This document shows positions 221 through 29,004 of a stretch of 29,946 nt of DNA, piece after piece (position 1 is the first letter of the stretch; every line of letters begins with the position of its first letter). This stretch comes from a virus. Location of the stretch: IMG/VR virus record IMGVR_UViG_3300010885_029103, positions 1-29,946 of that record; one strand, given 5' to 3'. The position numbers and the translations under genes were made by a program. Under the pieces are notes generated by a model that searched no databases, was not told the DNA's origin, and worked only from the letters and a program-made list of their open reading frames with translations.

Positions 221-2710
221 TTATGCAAATCTCACGTTTGTAAGATCGTGTGGATATGCTTGTTTTAATTTTTCATACCAGCTGACATCTACGCCACCAG
301 CAAAGAAAGCTGCAGTTTGAGGATCCATAGCACTATCAGAACGATTTGATGTTGGCACTTGATCTGCAACTTGTTGTTGCTGTGTTGGTTGCTGCATAGC
401 AGTTTGTTGTGCAGCTCTTTCTCTCAATGCATCTTGTTGTGCAGCAGTTTGGTTTAACGCCGAAGCACGATTCTGATTTTGATTTTGAGACATCATAGTT
501 GCTTGTGTTCTGTTATTTTCAGAACCACTGTTAGACAAACCACTGAGTAATTGATTCAGTACCGTGCCAATTAAGCCCCCAGCACGTCCACCAAACATCT
601 GGCCAATTCCACCTAATACATTACCATCAAACGGATCAGATCTCATTCTTCTTCCGCCCTGATATCCGTTTGAATATGGATCTGTATTTCCAGTATTCAA
701 CCCTTCATTTCCATCTTGATTTTGTTTACCACCAGCTCCCATACTAGATTGGCCTTGGCCACCTTGATCAAATGGATGGCCAGGAGCTCTATTGTTATCA
801 CTGGATTGTGTTGCTTCTCTTAACCAATCTGCGGCAGTAGCATTAGTTTTATCTTTACCCCAAATACCTTCTTTACCATATCCAACGTGTATTCTTGCTC
901 CATCAGGATCCATATATTCTTCACCAGCGCCGAAACCTGTCGCCCCTTCGGACTTAGCTTTCATTACAAATTTCTTAAATATATCAGCATTAGTTTTTGG
1001 TGTTAATCTTTTACCGCCTTGATATAAATCTAAGTCAGCAGCATTACCATTATCATGTCTTGTGGAGCCAGTTCTTCGTCCACCACCTTGAGATGGTTGT
1101 CCTCCTGATTTTACAACTACATCAACACCAGCAGCTGCAGCTGATTTTTGTAAAAGAGAAAGAAGACTTGGGCTAATTTTGCCACTTCGAATTCCAGATT
1201 GTTCTTGTCGAACGTTTCCGCCTCTAGGAACGACTTCATCTCTTTTTGTTGATTCACCACCCTGTGGTGCACCACCCTGTGGTGTTAACCCTGTACCATT
1301 TGTTTGTGGTGCAGTTGGTTGTTGTTCGCCACCAGCAGCCGGACTCGTTGGACTAGTTTGTGGACTCGTTGGACTAGTTTGTGGACTCGTTGGACTAGTT
1401 TGTGGACTAGTTTGTGGTGCAACACTGGCACCACCAGTTGGTTGTGCAGCACCAGCTCCTGATATAGGTGTAGGAGGAGATGTAATAACGTTAGTACTAT
1501 TCGCTGGTTTTGCATCCGGTACTCCAGAAAGCGAAACAGCATTATTTACTCTTTCTCTTCGTTTAGTACCATCTGATTTTTCATACATTTCATCAATTAG
1601 TATTGCAGCTGCATCTGCTGTTTTAGCACCTTTTAATGCATCACCGGCTTTTTTATATGTATGAGTCAATTCCCATTGTACGAATTCTAATTGTTCTTGG
1701 AATGTAGATCCTATTAAATCTTTTCCGTATAATTGTTTAAACTGTTTTTGTCTAGGTGCATGCCATTGAGCTATACCGACCGCAGATTCATTATCTCCTT
1801 TTCTTTTTCCTGATATTACATCTGCAGCAAAATTTACAGACTCGTGTTGTAAATTACCGACGATACCAGCAGCATGCTCTTTTGACCATCCTTTAGATCT
1901 AAAGAATTGCATAGCCTCCGAAGCAGAACCTCTTTGTCCTGCTGCTTTTACACCTCCGGTACTACCGCCAGTACCACCGACAGGTCCACCACTAGCACTA
2001 TTTTCAGGAGCTCCACCGGGTACTGTATCTATATTTCCACCGCTCCTCGAAGGTAAACCACCCGAAGATGGATATGCTGATCCATCAGCTGGTACTTTAC
2101 CTCCAAAAGTTCCTTCGCCAGCCGCTCCAGCGCTGGGCAGCTTACCACCGGGTAAATTATTTAATGCTTCATTTCCGCCATAAACAGCAGCACCAGCAGC
2201 ACCAATACCTAGCATCCACTTCAATGCAGTACCGAGACGTCCACCGCCTCCTGGTCTTACACTAGCTTTTTTTACGTTATCTATTTTTTGGGCGCTAAAC
2301 TCTTTATTTTTTTGAATATTTGTTAAACGCTCTGTATCATTTCCAGATCCACCGCCACCACCTCCGTTATACATCATCATCATAGTATTTTGTGCAACTT
2401 GTTTCATAAGGTTAGTCATCATGCCAAGCTGCTGCAGCATCATGTTTTGAACTTGCACGGAGTTTTCAAGTAAACTATTTGTTGTGTTTATTTTACCAGT
2501 AACTTGGTCTTGAGAATCAGAAATAGCATTCTCAATCGAAGTACTCATACTATTGATAGATTGACTTTGATTCTTAAAGACATTATGAACGTCTTTAAGA
2601 ATTCCTTTAACATTTTCGTTATGTTGTGTCGAAGCTTGTCTAAATTGGCTTACAGTAGAACCAAAATTACTAATAGATCTTGCGATTTGGGATAATTCTG
2701 CACCAGCCAT
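221..2710 (-). CDS. Virion-associated lysin: tail-lysozyme domain plus M15-type peptidase, in the tape-measure position
   Basis: 829 aa. Residues 1-110 are polar, helical and Met/Gln-rich (predicted coiled coil), followed by a Gly run (116-121). A hydrophobic stretch that could cross a membrane lies at about 160-178 (LKWMLGIGAAGAAVYGG). Residues about 262-395 look like the phage tail lysozyme family (GIVGNLQHES, likely catalytic Glu290; later VGIAQWHAPRQ). A Ser/Pro/Thr repeat linker (433-457) leads to a domain at about 512-632 with the Zn-peptidase M15 signature HxxGxAxD (His552, Asp559) and a later His608 in RIHVG. The C-terminus is Gly/Gln/Asn-rich. The role inferred is cleavage of glycan and peptide bonds of the host wall during infection. 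The ATG abuts the stop of the 59-aa ORF, with AGAAGG upstream as ribosome site. Its position directly after a G/GT-like pair is where tape measure genes usually sit. The enzymatic domains are well supported; the tape-measure role is inference. Confidence 0.8.
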   Translation of the reverse strand: MAGAELSQIARSISNFGSTVSQFRQASTQHNENVKGILKDVHNVFKNQSQSINSMSTSIENAISDSQDQVTGKINTTNSLLENSVQVQNMMLQQLGMMTNLMKQVAQNTMMMMYNGGGGGGSGNDTERLTNIQKNKEFSAQKIDNVKKASVRPGGGGRLGTALKWMLGIGAAGAAVYGGNEALNNLPGGKLPSAGAAGEGTFGGKVPADGSAYPSSGGLPSRSGGNIDTVPGGAPENSASGGPVGGTGGSTGGVKAAGQRGSASEAMQFFRSKGWSKEHAAGIVGNLQHESVNFAADVISGKRKGDNESAVGIAQWHAPRQKQFKQLYGKDLIGSTFQEQLEFVQWELTHTYKKAGDALKGAKTADAAAILIDEMYEKSDGTKRRERVNNAVSLSGVPDAKPANSTNVITSPPTPISGAGAAQPTGGASVAPQTSPQTSPTSPQTSPTSPQTSPTSPAAGGEQQPTAPQTNGTGLTPQGGAPQGGESTKRDEVVPRGGNVRQEQSGIRSGKISPSLLSLLQKSAAAAGVDVVVKSGGQPSQGGGRRTGSTRHDNGNAADLDLYQGGKRLTPKTNADIFKKFVMKAKSEGATGFGAGEEYMDPDGARIHVGYGKEGIWGKDKTNATAADWLREATQSSDNNRAPGHPFDQGGQGQSSMGAGGKQNQDGNEGLNTGNTDPYSNGYQGGRRMRSDPFDGNVLGGIGQMFGGRAGGLIGTVLNQLLSGLSNSGSENNRTQATMMSQNQNQNRASALNQTAAQQDALRERAAQQTAMQQPTQQQQVADQVPTSNRSDSAMDPQTAAFFAGGVDVSWYEKLKQAYPHDLTNVRFA
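1341..1415. repeat. 21-bp tandem repeat encoding a Ser/Pro/Thr linker
   Basis: Three exact copies of GGACTCGTTGGACTAGTTTG(T) start at 1341, 1362 and 1383, followed by a partial fourth copy (1404-1415). On the minus strand this encodes TSPTSPQ repeats (residues about 433-457 of the lysin), a flexible linker between the lysozyme and peptidase domains. Exact copies imply recent slippage and probably variable copy number among relatives. Confidence 0.92.
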
Positions 2711-2890
2711 TTACTCTTGCCTTCTCTTAGCATCTTCTACTTCTTGTAGATATTTTAGTAACATCTCAACATAAATGTCTCTTTCAAAAGGTATAAGATT
2801 TTCGATATCGCTAATCGAATATTTATGATGTTGAATTAAAGAGAAGTTAGTCGCATAATAATTCTGTAAAGAATTATGGTTTAGCGCCAT
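2711..2890 (-). CDS. 59-aa tail-assembly-chaperone 'T'-like ORF, probably made as a -1 frameshift extension of gp26
   Basis: The frame from ATG 2890-2888 to TAA 2713-2711 encodes MALNHNSLQNYYATN followed by HHKYSISDIENLIPFERDIY and a charged helix ending KRRQE. The pattern of a Tyr/Ser-start helix, then (L/I)PFER(D/E)IY, resembles the T part of phage tail assembly chaperones and the small ORF next to gp26 in aquatic T4-like phages. It might be labelled gp51 by position, but I cannot confirm homology to T4 gp51. The ATG lies inside the end of gp26, in the -1 frame, and has no Shine-Dalgarno sequence in the preceding 20 bases. The frame is closed by TGA (2902-2900) just upstream of a T7 run in gp26. 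Translation is therefore probably by frameshift, giving a fusion of about 293 aa, or by coupled re-initiation. The stop abuts the start of the lysin gene. Confidence 0.72.
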   Translation of the reverse strand: MALNHNSLQNYYATNFSLIQHHKYSISDIENLIPFERDIYVEMLLKYLQEVEDAKRRQE

Positions 2891-2899
2891 GTAAAAAAA
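2858..2899 (-). promoter_or_regulatory. Putative programmed -1 frameshift signal (T TTT TTT slippery site with downstream hairpin)
   Basis: Read on the minus strand, gp26 ends GAT TTT TTT ACA TGG CGC TAA. The T7 (2899-2893) is positioned as X XXY YYZ in the gp26 frame. A -1 slip continues TAC ATG GCG into the 59-aa frame. Fifteen bases downstream is an 8-bp perfect hairpin (ATAATTCT/AGAATTAT with 4-nt loop, 2877-2858), a candidate stimulatory structure. The spacer is longer than the usual 5-9 nt and the stem is AT-rich, so the hairpin is the weaker part of the case. Confidence 0.65.
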
Positions 2900-3591
2900 T
2901 CATTTAACGAGCTGAGGACAATTTGTCTATCATTCCCCAGTTCATTTTTGTATTCAATTTTGTATTGAATTTTTGGAGAATTGATTAAAAAAGTTTGAAT
3001 TGCTTCGAATATTTTAATATTCATACTTTCTAGAAATTCAGTCAACTCTTCTTTCTTATAATTTTTAGACTCGTACACATTGTCTTCGTAGTAAATTTTA
3101 TCGATACATCGAATAATTAATTCAAACATATAATCTTTATCGAGCTTAAGAAATTCTTCATCTTCATAAAGAGAAGCTGGTGGATATTTCATAACAATAC
3201 CAGATTTGTCTGATATCTTAATATCGTTTTCAATTTTATCTGGATTAACAATTTTAACATCATTTAAATCAATATTAAAAGTGTAATCCTTTTCGTCTTC
3301 ATAATCTTTATATGTTAGCTTAACAATATTATCTACAGAAACTGCACGAAGCTTTAAAAAGATATATTCAAGATCAAAGACGGCTATTTTATTTACATCA
3401 AATCCCTTATCGCTGCTGCAGTTATTTACGATCTGTTTAATAGCAGAAAGAATATCGGCTTCATTTTCGCTTTCTTTTGCCATAAGAAGAATTTTCTCTT
3501 CTCTAACTAAAAATGGTCTGAATTTGAAAACTTTATTAAGAGAAGGTACTTTGATATTATGTAAAGGATAGTCGATTTTAGGTAAAGACAT
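2881..3591 (-). CDS. gp26: gp26-like baseplate hub/assembly protein
   Basis: 236 aa, slightly longer than T4 gp26 (about 208). The N-terminus carries the family hallmark: a short basic strand, then VFKFRPFLVREEKILLMAKE (about residues 21-40), followed by acidic, Lys-rich sequence. This matches the T4 gp26 baseplate family (Pfam T4_baseplate). In T4 gp26 is needed for hub assembly and is not a dominant virion component, which fits a chaperone role. A GGAG ribosome site precedes the ATG (AATGGAGTTATAATATG). The last codons contain a T7 slippery run and overlap the 59-aa ORF in the -1 frame, which suggests that both gp26 and a longer fusion are made. It lies between the tail-tube-like gene and the lysin gene in a leftward operon. 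Confidence 0.87.
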   Translation of the reverse strand: MSLPKIDYPLHNIKVPSLNKVFKFRPFLVREEKILLMAKESENEADILSAIKQIVNNCSSDKGFDVNKIAVFDLEYIFLKLRAVSVDNIVKLTYKDYEDEKDYTFNIDLNDVKIVNPDKIENDIKISDKSGIVMKYPPASLYEDEEFLKLDKDYMFELIIRCIDKIYYEDNVYESKNYKKEELTEFLESMNIKIFEAIQTFLINSPKIQYKIEYKNELGNDRQIVLSSLNDFFTWR

Positions 3592-3612
3592 ATTATAACT
3601 CCATTATAATGT

Positions 3613-4305
3613 TCATGGTGTGATGGTTGTTGCGCCAGCTGGTGTAGCGTTTATCAAATTTAATTGTTGTTTATTTAATCTATCTTGTATATCTGAACCT
3701 TCTATATTATATTCAGAATATGATAAATTGATATTAATTTTTAAAAGGTTCCCATTATCTGCCCAACTCATAGGCGTTTCTCTCATAGCTACTGGAAAAA
3801 CTTCAAACAGATTAATTTTTTGAATAGCATTACCGAACATATCATACATTACTATTTGCATCGTTGTAGAATAGTCATGTTTATAATTCGATGTATACGT
3901 TGGAACTCTATTAGCAGTATTTACTCTAGATGCAGATGTTCCGGTAAATTCAAATACAGATCTTAACCAATTGTGCCAAAATTGCCAAATATTACCATAA
4001 CCATCAGATAACATGCTAAAACTAGTTTCGCTATATTGTGCATTGACCGGTTGTTTCTGTGTTGGTCCAATACCATATGGTGCATTATCAGCTGTTAATA
4101 AAGTTACACCAGGAATTCTCACTGTATCGATACGATAACAAAGATCACGAACTATGTTATTGACTAATTCTGGAGTACCGATATTATTGATTGCACTACC
4201 TGACAGTATAGGTGGTGGCGTAATAAACACCTCAAATTTATTAGTCGGTAAATAACCGTTACTGTTTATAGATGTTTTAAAAGTAGCTATATTAAATGCA
4301 CGCAT
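3613..4305 (-). CDS. Tail-tube-fold protein, candidate gp54 baseplate tube initiator
   Basis: 230 aa. The pattern is that of the T4 gp19/gp48/gp54 tail-tube superfamily: RIDTVRIPGV (58-67), PYGIGPTQ (76-83), then a strand/helix SMLSDGYGNIWQFWHNWLRS (97-116). After that come strands TMQIVMYDMFGNAIQKI (148-164), the FPVAM segment (170-174) and a final LLKININLSYSEY (187-199). Because a gp48-like gene is present nearby on the other strand and tube proteins proper (gp19) usually sit with the sheath gene gp18, which is absent here, gp54 is the best guess; gp19 is the alternative. An AGGA site precedes the ATG, 8 bases after the stop of the upstream 190-aa gene. T4 gp54 is longer (about 320 aa), so this would be a compact version. 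Confidence 0.6.
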   Translation of the reverse strand: MRAFNIATFKTSINSNGYLPTNKFEVFITPPPILSGSAINNIGTPELVNNIVRDLCYRIDTVRIPGVTLLTADNAPYGIGPTQKQPVNAQYSETSFSMLSDGYGNIWQFWHNWLRSVFEFTGTSASRVNTANRVPTYTSNYKHDYSTTMQIVMYDMFGNAIQKINLFEVFPVAMRETPMSWADNGNLLKININLSYSEYNIEGSDIQDRLNKQQLNLINATPAGATTITP

Positions 4306-10114: not shown

Positions 10115-11020
10115 ATGAGTATTGGAGATAAGTTTAATAAAGTTTTGGAAACAGATCCACGTGATCGTTCTGAACCAAAGTATCCGGACATTTACGGAGA
10201 AAGTAGCCTCGCTGGCCGAAAGCTTATACGTTATGAACCTCGTGAAGCAAAAGATCAGGCTAAAGCTTTTGTAGAAGAAGTTCATCATGACGGTACTTTT
10301 ACAAATAAAGAAGCAAATGGTCTTCTTAATAGTCTTATAAAACAATGCAGAGAATATGTTTGCGGTGGTAAAAGTGTACACAGCGATGGCAATAATTCGG
10401 TAAAATCAGGATCTAATGTAGTTGTAGATGCAGATTTAGATACGGGCCAATCAACTGGTGGTAATCTTTATAAAGGTCAGGGTGGTAAAGAAATCGGCGG
10501 CGCCAAAGAAGGCAGTTATAGTGGCACAGATGGCGATGTTTTTAAAACTACAAAGGGCAATGAAGTTAAAACTCACAAAGGAAACAAACACAGCAGTACC
10601 GATGGAGATAGTTTAGCCACAGTAATTGGCACATATTATCAAACAGTCGTTGGTGAATGTGGCACTAATGTACAAAAGGGTAATTTTGATACAAAAATAA
10701 ATGATGGTAAACTTAGATTTGATGTGGCTGAAAACATATCAATACTAAGTCACGATCAAATTAATTTAAACGCTGATGCTGGTGTAGGCATTATCAATTT
10801 ACAAAGCTTAAATAAAATAATTTTGCAATTAGCAGGAGATTCTGGACCACAAATTATTATGGATGCTACCAGTATAATTTTAAAAGTCGGCACCGGTGAC
10901 GCCGCCAAAGGAATTAAAATAACATCTGATGGTGTTTCTATAACTAAAACAACATGGGTTGGTCAAGACAAAATTGGTGAACAAACAGGAACAGCGTCTC
11001 CAAAAGCTCATTTCCCATAA
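10115..11020 (+). CDS. gp5 C-terminal-like beta-helix spike protein
   Basis: 301 aa. After a charged helical N-terminus (about 1-90) the sequence becomes a run of short Gly-turn strands: VHSDGNNSVKSGSNVVVDAD (about 88-107), GSYSGTDGDVFKTTKGNEVK (about 132-151), THKGNKHSSTDGDSL. It ends in longer alternating strands (KLRFDVAENISILSHDQINL, GPQIIMDATSIILKVG). This resembles the triple-stranded beta-helix needle of T4 gp5 and VgrG/gpV spikes, which carries the membrane-piercing tip. No PAAR domain is visible, although a C-terminal HFP ending could cap the tip. Assignment is by sequence style and position, not by a unique motif. ATG follows the previous stop by one base; GGTGTTATGAT lies upstream. 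Confidence 0.6.
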   Translation: MSIGDKFNKVLETDPRDRSEPKYPDIYGESSLAGRKLIRYEPREAKDQAKAFVEEVHHDGTFTNKEANGLLNSLIKQCREYVCGGKSVHSDGNNSVKSGSNVVVDADLDTGQSTGGNLYKGQGGKEIGGAKEGSYSGTDGDVFKTTKGNEVKTHKGNKHSSTDGDSLATVIGTYYQTVVGECGTNVQKGNFDTKINDGKLRFDVAENISILSHDQINLNADAGVGIINLQSLNKIILQLAGDSGPQIIMDATSIILKVGTGDAAKGIKITSDGVSITKTTWVGQDKIGEQTGTASPKAHFP

Positions 11021-24846: not shown

Positions 24847-25536
24847 ATGACTTGGCAAATTACTAATATCGCAAATACCGACACATTTCAAAAATGGCTT
24901 GACACAACTAACTATGTTGTCAATGCCATTTCAACTGCAGCGGTAACCACCGGAAATGCTGTTACAGGTGCAATTACAGTTAATGGGTCTATTAATTGTA
25001 ATACACTTGTTACTAATAATATTACGATTAACGCTAATCTTACTGTTAATGCTATTTCTGTTGGAAATTCAACAGTTAATACATCGGCCAATTCAACTGT
25101 ATTGAAAATTTCCAACTCTACAGCTTCTATGATACTGTCAGTACCAACTGCAGCTCAGGTTTCAAATGGTCAATATTACCATAATGCTAACGGTTCTTGG
25201 GCTCTAATTACACAACAGACAACTCCTGTTACTAATGGATCGTTTACAACAACTGGTACAAGCTCCCAAACAATAGATAGCTATCTTATGGCGTCGTATA
25301 CTTCGGCAGAATATCTCGTTAATATTTCTGATAATAATGCCAATAACCATTATACTTCTAAAATTTTAACGGCGCATAATGGTTCGGCCGTATATTCTAC
25401 AGAATATGCCGCTGTAACTACCACTGGTACTTCATTGGGAGTGTTTTCGACATCAACAGATGGCACAAGTTTACAGCTTGTATTTACACCAGTTTCATCA
25501 AGTACATCGGGTAAATTTACTAGGGTAACTGTCTAA
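24847..25536 (+). CDS. Short fibre-like structural protein
   Basis: 229 aa. The N-terminus NIANTDTFQKWLDTTNYVVN (7-26) resembles the attachment helix of small baseplate fibres. Next comes a Thr/Asn-rich beta region that includes SVGNSTVNTS, a motif shared with the 906-aa fibre and the last gene. The last 95 residues (SSQTIDSYLMASYTSAEYLV, then a Lys-Ile-Leu strand and VYSTEYAAVTTTGTSLGVFS) look like a known small beta-sandwich found at the C-terminus of phage tail proteins. The likely role is an accessory fibre or connector. It abuts the coiled-coil gene, and its TAA overlaps the ATG of an 8-codon minicistron (TAATG). Confidence 0.78.
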   Translation: MTWQITNIANTDTFQKWLDTTNYVVNAISTAAVTTGNAVTGAITVNGSINCNTLVTNNITINANLTVNAISVGNSTVNTSANSTVLKISNSTASMILSVPTAAQVSNGQYYHNANGSWALITQQTTPVTNGSFTTTGTSSQTIDSYLMASYTSAEYLVNISDNNANNHYTSKILTAHNGSAVYSTEYAAVTTTGTSLGVFSTSTDGTSLQLVFTPVSSSTSGKFTRVTV

Positions 25537-26283: not shown

Positions 26284-29004
26284 ATGGCCGTGGCTAATAA
26301 TAAAATCCAAATTAAACGCTCGACAACTAACTCAACAGTACCAGCTCTTTCGAACGGTGAATTGGCTTTTACTGCCAATGGTAATATACTTTATATTGGT
26401 CATCCGGACGGTAGCACCGGTAATATTCGTATCGGTGGTAGACAGTACCCAGGTACGCTTACAGCGAACCAAGCGGTTGTTGTCAATGCCACATCTGGTA
26501 TAGACCAACTTATCGTTGCCAACTTACAGCCACAAGGAATTACCGCCAACGGTTCTGTTGGTACCGCAGGGTACATTCTTGCTACTGGCGGCGCTGGATC
26601 GAACGTCTATTGGCTCTCAGCCGCTGCCTATGGCGTAAACGTTACTGCACAATACACATGGACAAACACTCAATCGTATTCAAACACCATCACATTCAAC
26701 GGTGCATTAGTAACCACAAACGCTATTTCGGCCAACGGTTCTAATGGTACTTCGGGTTATGTTCTTGCTTCTGGTGGTAATGGTAACGTATACTGGGTCA
26801 ATCCAGCCACATTTTCTGTAAATGTTAATGCGCAATACGTATGGACTAATACTCATACATTCCAAAACACTATAACCTTTGGCTCTAACCTTGTAGTTGA
26901 CACCACATCTGTTAGATGGGTTGGTAATACCACTACTTCCCCAACTGTAACTTTTGCAAACAGTGGTGCATTAACTATTGGTAATAGTACTACCACACAA
27001 ACGACATCAATTATTTCGGTTGCTAACTCTGTTGGTAACGTTCAAATTGTTCCAACTTCTATAACAACTCAAACTAACTCAACTGTTAACTCAACAGTTA
27101 CATCTTCATTGGTTCAGGTTTCAAACAGTACTTCGAGTGCTAACGTAACAGCCACAGGTATTCAAGCTTATACTAACTCGACTGTTAACTCATCCATTAC
27201 TGCTTCATTAGTTCAAGTTTCGAATAGCACTTCGACTGCCAACCTTACCGCACTTGATCTTAAAATTGGTGCGACTACAGTTGTTAACTCTTCTCAAATT
27301 ACAGCGACTGTTCTTGCTGGTAACTTATCAGCTTCTTATGCTAATATTTCCGGACAAGTTAACACTGCCACACTTTATGCTGCTACTTCCGCAAACATCG
27401 CTTCTGCTGTACAAGCAAACTCGACTGGCGTTTGGACTACCGGTACGGTCAATGGTGCGACAATTTCGGTCGGCACTACTTTCATCGCCAATACTACAAC
27501 ATTAAACGCAAACGGGCTCGTTGTTAACTCAACTGGTGGTTTCTTAACTGGTTATGCTAACGCTTCTGGCTTTAACACCACTGGTTCTACAAATACTGCC
27601 ACACTTTATGCTACTACCTCTGCTAACATTGCATCAGCTGTTCAAGCTAATGCTACTGGTGTTTGGACTACTGGAACTGTTAATGGTGCAACTATTTCTG
27701 TTGGTACCACATTCCTTGCTAATACAACTGTATTGAACGCCAATGGACTCGTTGCTAATCTTGCCGGTGGTTTCTTCACTGGTTATGTAAATGCTTCTGG
27801 TTTCAGCACTACGGGTTCGACAAATACAGCTACCTTTACTGCCACAACATCTGCAAACGTTGGTGCTAACGTACAGTTAACAACTTCGGCATTAACTGTT
27901 GGTAATTCTACAGTTAATACTACTCATACTTCTGCAGTTATGCAGGTTGCCAATAGTACAACAACTGCCAACGTAACAGCTGCTGGTATTCAGGCTTATA
28001 CCAACTCAACAGTCAACTCAACAATGACTGCATCGTTGGTTCAGGTTTCGAACTCAACTGCAACCGCTAACTTAACTGCTACTGGTCTAAATATCGGCGC
28101 CACAACAGTCGTTAATACTATCGCTGTTGTTGCAACCACTCTTACTGGTAACTTATCAGCAACATATGCTAACGTTTCTGGACAAGTTAACACTGGTACT
28201 CTTTATGTAACTACTTCGGCTAACGTTGGAACGTATCTAACGGTTAACTCGACTGTTGTTAACTCTTCTGTTAATACTAGCATCGGAGCTAACCTAACAC
28301 TTACAGGCGCTCTTAACTCGTTTGGTGGTACAAACACCTCTATTACTTCGAATGTAACGTTCACTAGTGCTAATATCGACGCTACTTCATCGCTACTTCG
28401 TATTCGTGATATCGTTGCCAGTGGTAACTTAATTGTCGGCGGTACTGTTGTTTCTGTGAACACTTCACAGTTAATGATCAACGATAACATTATCCAGCTA
28501 GCTGACAATAACCTTACAACGGACGTTGTCGATAGCGGTTGGTTTAATCCATCAGGTAATGCTACAAATATTTGGTATTCAGGTATGGTTCGTCAGGCTG
28601 CAAAGTCTTCGAACAGTAATCCTTACTTCTGGCTTTTCGCTTCTAACACTAATCCAAATACTGCAACAACTGTTGATACTACAGCAAATAGCTCGACTGG
28701 TACTCTTCAAGCATACTTGTCTCCTTATGGAACTGGTGTGGCTTTCGTTGCTAACTCAACTGCTGTCACTCTTACTGCAAATGCTACGGTTAACGTAAAT
28801 ATTACTGCTAATTCTCTGTCATTATCCACTGCTCTTCCAGCCACATCCGGTGGTACAGGATATAACACTTATACTTCTGGTGATATTCTTATTGCTAACT
28901 CCGGTAATGCTCTGACCAAGTTGGGTATTGGTACTGATGGTTATGTTCTTCAGGTTAATGGAACAACAGTATCTTGGAACACTCTTGACGGTGGAACGTT
29001 TTAA
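26284..29004 (+). CDS. Long repeat-rich tail fibre protein
   Basis: 906 aa. The N-terminal domain KIQIKRSTTNSTVPALSNGE (7-26), then LAF...ILYIG, is an Mtd-like/fibre-anchoring pattern repeated at the start of the last gene in the window. Two related blocks follow (GTAGYILATGGAGSNVYW and GTSGYVLASGGNGNVYWVNP), each with a YxWTNTxxxxNTITF strand. Then comes a long Asn/Thr/Ser/Val-rich beta-helical shaft with 77-residue tandem repeats and a larger duplicated block. The distal part has the fibre motif VNTSQLMINDNIIQLADNN and a C-terminal GTGYNTYTSGDILIANSGN with WNTLDGGTF. The role is host recognition. The coding sequence shows more C-ending codons (AAC, ACC, GCC) than its neighbours at its 5' end. 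It is driven by its own TATAAATA promoter. Confidence 0.85.
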   Translation: MAVANNKIQIKRSTTNSTVPALSNGELAFTANGNILYIGHPDGSTGNIRIGGRQYPGTLTANQAVVVNATSGIDQLIVANLQPQGITANGSVGTAGYILATGGAGSNVYWLSAAAYGVNVTAQYTWTNTQSYSNTITFNGALVTTNAISANGSNGTSGYVLASGGNGNVYWVNPATFSVNVNAQYVWTNTHTFQNTITFGSNLVVDTTSVRWVGNTTTSPTVTFANSGALTIGNSTTTQTTSIISVANSVGNVQIVPTSITTQTNSTVNSTVTSSLVQVSNSTSSANVTATGIQAYTNSTVNSSITASLVQVSNSTSTANLTALDLKIGATTVVNSSQITATVLAGNLSASYANISGQVNTATLYAATSANIASAVQANSTGVWTTGTVNGATISVGTTFIANTTTLNANGLVVNSTGGFLTGYANASGFNTTGSTNTATLYATTSANIASAVQANATGVWTTGTVNGATISVGTTFLANTTVLNANGLVANLAGGFFTGYVNASGFSTTGSTNTATFTATTSANVGANVQLTTSALTVGNSTVNTTHTSAVMQVANSTTTANVTAAGIQAYTNSTVNSTMTASLVQVSNSTATANLTATGLNIGATTVVNTIAVVATTLTGNLSATYANVSGQVNTGTLYVTTSANVGTYLTVNSTVVNSSVNTSIGANLTLTGALNSFGGTNTSITSNVTFTSANIDATSSLLRIRDIVASGNLIVGGTVVSVNTSQLMINDNIIQLADNNLTTDVVDSGWFNPSGNATNIWYSGMVRQAAKSSNSNPYFWLFASNTNPNTATTVDTTANSSTGTLQAYLSPYGTGVAFVANSTAVTLTANATVNVNITANSLSLSTALPATSGGTGYNTYTSGDILIANSGNALTKLGIGTDGYVLQVNGTTVSWNTLDGGTF
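27166..27390 (+). repeat. Copy 1 of a duplicated fibre block (offset 828 bp)
   Basis: Encodes AYTNSTVNSSITASLVQVSN, then IGATTVVN, GNLSASYANISGQVNTATLY and TSAN. The same order and spacing recurs exactly 828 bp downstream, so the fibre shaft grew by duplication of a 276-residue segment that encloses the 77-residue repeats. Confidence 0.85.
27361..27822 (+). repeat. Two 231-bp tandem units in the fibre shaft
   Basis: Units 27361-27591 and 27592-27822 each encode 77 residues beginning NTATLYA(A/T)TSANIASAVQ and ending ASGF(N/S)TTGST. The proteins differ at about ten positions, while many codons differ synonymously. A third unit starts at 27823 (NTATFTATTSANVG) but diverges after about 15 residues. 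Confidence 0.9.
27994..28218 (+). repeat. Copy 2 of the duplicated fibre block
   Basis: Encodes AYTNSTVNSTMTASLVQVSN, IGATTVVN, GNLSATYANVSGQVNTGTLY and TSAN, parallel to 27166-27390 at a constant 828-bp offset. Synonymous codon changes outnumber amino acid changes by eye, indicating an old duplication under selection on the protein. Confidence 0.85.

Follow-up and report, generated by a model that had tools for sequence, protein, structure and literature searches.

A probable tail assembly chaperone gene with a -1 frameshift, formed by gp26 and the short 'gp51' reading frame of a T4-related phage contig

Introduction

In many long-tailed phages, ribosomes that slip back by one base produce a long form of a tail assembly chaperone. 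This frameshift between the tail genes G and T is conserved, and a review of 2016 named T4 as the exception to it (PMC5009743). The protein gp51 has been described as essential and of unknown function (PMC3004832). Cyanophages were reported to carry a 'truncated gp51' with about 20 % of the length of T4 gp51, in which the first ~200 amino acids are missing (Sullivan et al. 2010, PMC3037559). According to the citing passages of two later papers, the tail assembly chaperone genes of T4-like phages were identified by Vladimirov et al. 2022 (Virology) (PMC10885494, PMC12846349). In these passages, the PRFect paper states that some T4-like phages do without the frameshift and hold a short gene and a longer, fused one (PMC10885494), and the paper on phage Adele cites Vladimirov et al. 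2022 for poly-T -1 signals in the TAC-N genes of T4-like phages (PMC12846349). Because the citing papers credit that study with the T4-like chaperones and the poly-T signals, a frameshift in gp26 is not new in kind; a preliminary description of the present locus, which suggested that the frameshift in gp26 was undescribed, was mistaken at least in this respect. The main idea appears to have been published already, and the present work adds a survey of the junction, its distribution over lineages and the exceptions.

Materials and methods

The window is the whole stretch of DNA that was analysed, a viral contig of 29,946 bases; its gp26 region is read on the minus strand. The gp26 proteins of the window, of S-ShM2 and of phiM12 were the survey queries, and three scans of viral contigs together with three isolate loci provided 183 loci. 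These were selected via gp26 and are thus not a random sample; the slip site was absent from the listed search patterns. A T domain was present in 176 of the 183 loci, in the other seven the available DNA stops before or at the junction. The relatives group into 42 clusters below 70 % identity and into 26 below 50 %. An alignment by hhalign of the gp26 profile with T4 gp51 as a single sequence gave only a short, probably wrong stretch and was discarded; the Pfam and PHROG matches were used instead.

Results and discussion

The gene pair and its junction in the window comprise the following features:

2881..3591, minus strand: gp26, predicted short (G / TAC-N) product of 236 aa, stop codon included (PF12322, phrog_150, AlphaFold2)
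2893..2899, minus strand: heptamer T TTT TTT, a slippery sequence whose phase suits a -1 slip (0-frame GAT TTT TTT; from the sequence)
2900..2902, minus strand: TGA shutting the -1 frame immediately 5' of the heptamer (from the sequence)
2711..2899, minus strand: extension in the -1 frame (T / gp51 domain), which starts with FF and has 62 codons before its stop (phrog_634, C-terminal end of phrog_150, alignment)
2888..2890, minus strand: start codon (ATG) of the 59-aa ORF as called mechanically; it is not conserved and lacks a Shine-Dalgarno sequence
2858..2877, minus strand: A+T-rich hairpin of 8 bp, 15 nt 3' of the T-run, not conserved within the clade
221..2710, minus strand: tape-measure-like protein of 829 aa with a Phage_lysozyme2 domain (PF18013, phrog_9570)
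3613..4305, minus strand: tail tube protein gene, upstream of gp26 (phrog_45)

The 3' end of gp26 reads GAT TTT TTT ACA TGG CGC TAA. The preliminary description had placed a run of seven T in the phase of a -1 slip, with the -1 frame closed by a TGA directly before the run and open after it, and this is what the sequence holds: the run occupies 2893-2899 and is followed in the -1 frame by 62 sense codons (FFYMALNHNSL...) up to a stop at 2711-2713. Translation gave the two product lengths proposed before, 236 aa for the short form and 293 aa for gp26 fused to the -1 extension. The sequence 5' of the ATG of the 59-aa ORF is TTAAATGATTTTTTTAC and contains no Shine-Dalgarno sequence, again as first described.

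Both parts were assigned by profile matches. The window gp26 belongs to PF12322 (T4_baseplate; E=7.1e-55) and phrog_150 (E=7.2e-57). The 59-aa ORF matched phrog_634, the "baseplate hub assembly catalyst" gp51 (E=4.6e-25), and on these matches it is a gp51 homologue. It matched in addition the C-terminal end of phrog_150, the gp26 family profile (E=2e-5), which indicates that some members of the family hold both parts in one protein. Profile alignments by hhalign related the gp26 family to T4 gp26 (E=3e-17) and the T domain to the C-terminal end of T4 gp51 (E=3e-5). Searches of PDB sequences with the gp26 and T-domain profiles yielded nothing meaningful.

Compared with predicted viral structures, the AlphaFold2 model of gp26 (pLDDT 90.9) resembled further proteins named "baseplate hub". 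Solved structures searched with this model gave no significant match; the HK97 tail assembly chaperone 2ob9 was found with an E-value of about 2.5 and a target TM of 0.42-0.45, so that the resemblance of the modelled fold is suggestive only. The -1-frame domain was predicted to be all-helical with modest confidence (pLDDT 76).

The gp26/51 pair sits between a tail tube gene and a tape-measure-like gene, the order V-G-T-H of lambda. The upstream gene matched the tail tube family phrog_45 (E=1e-18), and a tail tube gene is annotated upstream also in S-SCSM1, phiM12, RHph_I1_9 and pf16. The downstream 829-aa protein matched PF18013 (E=5e-25) and the tail length tape measure family phrog_9570 (E=2e-27), the latter over the lysozyme region only. 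The Phage_lysozyme2 domain is internal to this tape-measure-like protein (window 221-2710, minus strand; residues 263-392). Elsewhere in the window, three proteins encoded on the plus strand among the genes for baseplate and tail fibres had no PHROG match at an E-value of 0.001: one of 301 aa (10115-11020), one of 229 aa (24847-25536) and one of 906 aa (26284-29004).

The comparison of junctions proposed in the preliminary description revealed a conserved heptamer and phase. Among the 176 loci having both parts, the T (gp51) domain was read in the -1 frame in 175, and without exception these 175 end gp26 with T TTT TTY in phase, as T TTT TTC in 138 and T TTT TTT in 37 loci. At other codon positions of gp26 the same in-phase motif was observed only 3 times in 9777 (42 cluster representatives). 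The wobble base of the codon preceding the slip site was T in 42/42 clusters, across codons for D, N, S, A, H and T, and the first Phe of the slip site was always TTT, while a third of the Phe codons in these genes are TTC. Compared with codon usage of the same genes, and ignoring relatedness, log10 P was -10.1 for the wobble T and -7.2 for the TTT. From the slip site to the T core, stops in the -1 frame were absent in 174/174 loci and the +1 frame was closed in 174/174. Within the clade of the window, pS in the -1 frame 3' of the gp26 stop was 0.93 versus a pN of 0.24, compared with pS/pN values of about 0.3/0.4 in the other frames: the -1 frame is under purifying selection.

Very probably, then, gp26 and the 59-aa 'gp51' ORF are a single tail assembly chaperone gene whose long form arises by a -1 frameshift. 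The G/GT-type reading, offered in the preliminary description as the T4-type counterpart, is supported at the level of sequence by the conserved slip site and phase, a conserved -1 peptide that in most clusters has no start codon, purifying selection, synteny and the homology to T4 gp51. What the sequences show is the slip site with its phase, the conservation, the homology and the order of the genes; the slipping itself, its rate and the chaperone roles are inferred. Most ribosomes would terminate at the TAA of gp26 and release the short form of 236 aa (G-like, TAC-N). Some of the tandem Phe-tRNAs would re-pair one base back on T TTT TTT, and the ribosomes that slip there would continue in the -1 frame and yield a long form of 293 aa (GT-like, TAC-NC), whose C-terminal domain is predicted to be helical. 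If the locus works as in lambda, the N part shared by both forms would coat the tape measure protein, whose gene follows immediately downstream, and the task of the rarer C domain would be to recruit subunits of the tail tube. In T4 and in phages close to it, the two proteins are encoded by the paralogous genes 26 (short) and 51 (long).

A separate small gene gp51 with its own start, translated by coupling or reinitiation at the gp26 stop next to an incidental T-run, is the least improbable of the other explanations and still a quite unlikely one. The ORF in the window has an ATG, and in 13/42 clusters a start codon is found among the first 4 codons of the -1 frame. The gp26 stop overlaps the gp51 start in the Vibrio phages 1.244.A, K474, V09 and VP-1 and in Rhizobium phage RHph_I1_9, and in S-SCSM1 the T domain lies in the +1 frame. 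However, the first seven -1-frame codons are free of ATG, GTG and TTG in 29/42 clusters, and the conserved domain start, F-F-x-x-x-L-x-H-x-S-L-x-N-Y-Y, could therefore be made there only by frameshifting; its first residues would be out of reach for a separate gene. Against this explanation stand also the nearly invariant heptamer and phase, the existence of a fused form in T4, and ACG-2014d and S-CAM1, whose annotation has no gp51 gene at all although their -1 frame encodes the domain.

RNA polymerase slippage on the T-run, as the source of the frame change in place of ribosomal slipping, is less probable again. The T7 of the window clade is a homopolymer on which a polymerase could slip, but 138 of 175 relatives carry T6C. 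This run is shorter than those usually needed for transcriptional slippage. Moreover, the run holds the exact codon phase required by a tandem -1 tRNA slip, whereas transcriptional slippage is independent of phase. Errors are common in homopolymers, and T4 has gp51 as one fused ORF, yet the chance that a sequencing or assembly error in this metagenomic contig split one fused ORF is negligible, since a second contig (L005), whose gp26 is 100 % identical to that of the window, shows the same T7, which argues against an assembly error, and the phase recurs in 175 loci, isolate genomes included.

Candidate stimulatory elements were rejected. The hairpin ATAATTCT-TTAC-AGAATTAT of the preliminary description is present at 2858-2877, with 8 bp and -4.4 kcal/mol, and begins 15 nt 3' of the T-run. 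Thirteen further members of the clade retain pairing at only 3-7 of the 8 positions, and the hairpin therefore looks incidental. Folding of the downstream 60 nt differed weakly from control stretches (mean z -0.9 vs -0.35), and no conserved downstream structure was found across the relatives. As a stimulator, the hairpin was dismissed on the lost pairing and the weak z difference. A Shine-Dalgarno-like GAGGG or GGAGGG ends 9 nt 5' of the heptamer in 15/42 clusters, and GAGG stands at 16 nt in 2 more. The Glu codon at this site was GAG in 15/22 cases versus 28 % elsewhere (about 1e-4, binomial). An internal Shine-Dalgarno stimulator was also discarded: the window clade lacks the motif, which moreover goes with a conserved Glu-Gly pair.

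The junction with T TTT TTY and -1 phase was found also in the Aeromonas phages Ahp1, AS-zj and 65.2, the KVP40-like V09, Desulfovibrio 7757, Pseudomonas pf16, Methylophilales Melnitz and Synechococcus MA10; Sinorhizobium phages have the -1 junction as well. Deviations occurred. Rhizobium RHph_I1_9 has T TTT TTG as slip site. The Vibrio phages 1.244.A, K474 and VP-1 retain the -1 phase with a slip site of only NTT TTT, and their gp51 ATG overlaps the gp26 stop (TAATG); a mixture of frameshifting and reinitiation is possible in these phages. Synechococcus S-SCSM1 (MK867354.2; locus around 1714-1740) has extra bases past the gp26 stop that place the domain in the +1 frame. This phase differs from the 175 other surveyed loci, related contigs included, and may be a sequencing error or a true exception.

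T4 itself distributes the two products over two genes. PF12322 matched the window gp26 (7e-55), T4 gp26 (9e-64) and T4 gp51 (4e-52). T4 gp26 (208 aa) contains the N part of the family only and ends where the slip site would correspond. T4 gp51 (249 aa) has PF12322 over residues 1-201 and matched phrog_150 with residues 3-248 of 249 (E=2.6e-84), the C part being covered, as well as phrog_634 (E=1.2e-23). Judged by these alignments, T4 gp51 is homologous to the entire gp26-51 fusion and T4 gp26 to the short product only, and T4 has two paralogous genes for what the phages surveyed here appear to make by -1 frameshifting. Phage 44RR and an Acinetobacter phage share the 26/51 arrangement of T4. 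Klebsiella phage CP-p-KP-21068 (locus 2501-3792) carries a long gp51-type and a short gp26-type gene in tandem right after the tail tube gene, the position held elsewhere by the frameshifted gene.

A tree of the N domain separated the T4-type 26, the T4-type 51 and the frameshift-type genes into one group each (support 84/86, 100/100 and 93/82, respectively), with the KVP40-like and the Aeromonas Emmerichvirinae among the frameshift-type genes; with its long branches and arbitrary root, the direction of change is not readable from it. Only tentatively, and with considerable doubt, may the finding be generalised to -1 frameshifting at T TTT TTY as the general route to the long chaperone in relatives of T4 other than the T4/44RR/Acinetobacter-type group, among them Kyanoviridae, Emmerichvirinae and KVP40-like phages. 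The short 'gp51' annotated in many of their genomes would then not be a gene of its own, and T4 would owe its genes 26 and 51 to a duplication that took the place of frameshifting, unless the change ran the other way.

A G/GT scheme for gp26 and gp51 would explain why the gp51 of marine T4-like phages looks "truncated" or is missing. The annotation of many T4-like phages would be corrected, 564 phage records containing a match to the -1-frame domain. One frameshifted gene and two paralogous genes would also offer a natural comparison of how the ratio of the chaperones is set.

Comparison with described systems

The 'truncated gp51' of cyanophages (PMC3037559) corresponds to the same ORF as the -1-frame extension; it was presented there as a reduced gene, and the word "frameshift" is absent from the main text in the parts consulted. 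Pseudomonas phage Adele and other Vandenendeviridae (PMC12846349) share a poly-T run close to the TAC-N stop with a -1 slip, giving TAC-N and TAC-NC, and a C part in the -1 frame that precedes the tape measure and is listed as a hypothetical gene in its own right, whereas the motif there is GTTTTT. The hub assembly chaperones gp26 and gp51 of T4 belong to the same family as the window proteins and resemble the short and the fused long product, respectively, but T4 encodes them in two paralogous genes on opposite strands and uses no frameshift. With the tail assembly chaperones G/GT of lambda, which arise by a -1 programmed frameshift, the locus has in common a predicted short product and a minor -1-extended one, a slippery heptamer that ends the first ORF, and the order tail tube, G/GT, tape measure. 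In contrast to lambda, the G-like part is larger (236 aa), belongs to the PF12322 family and has T TTT TTY as slip site, and no solved chaperone was matched significantly, be it by sequence or, for the gp26 model, by fold.
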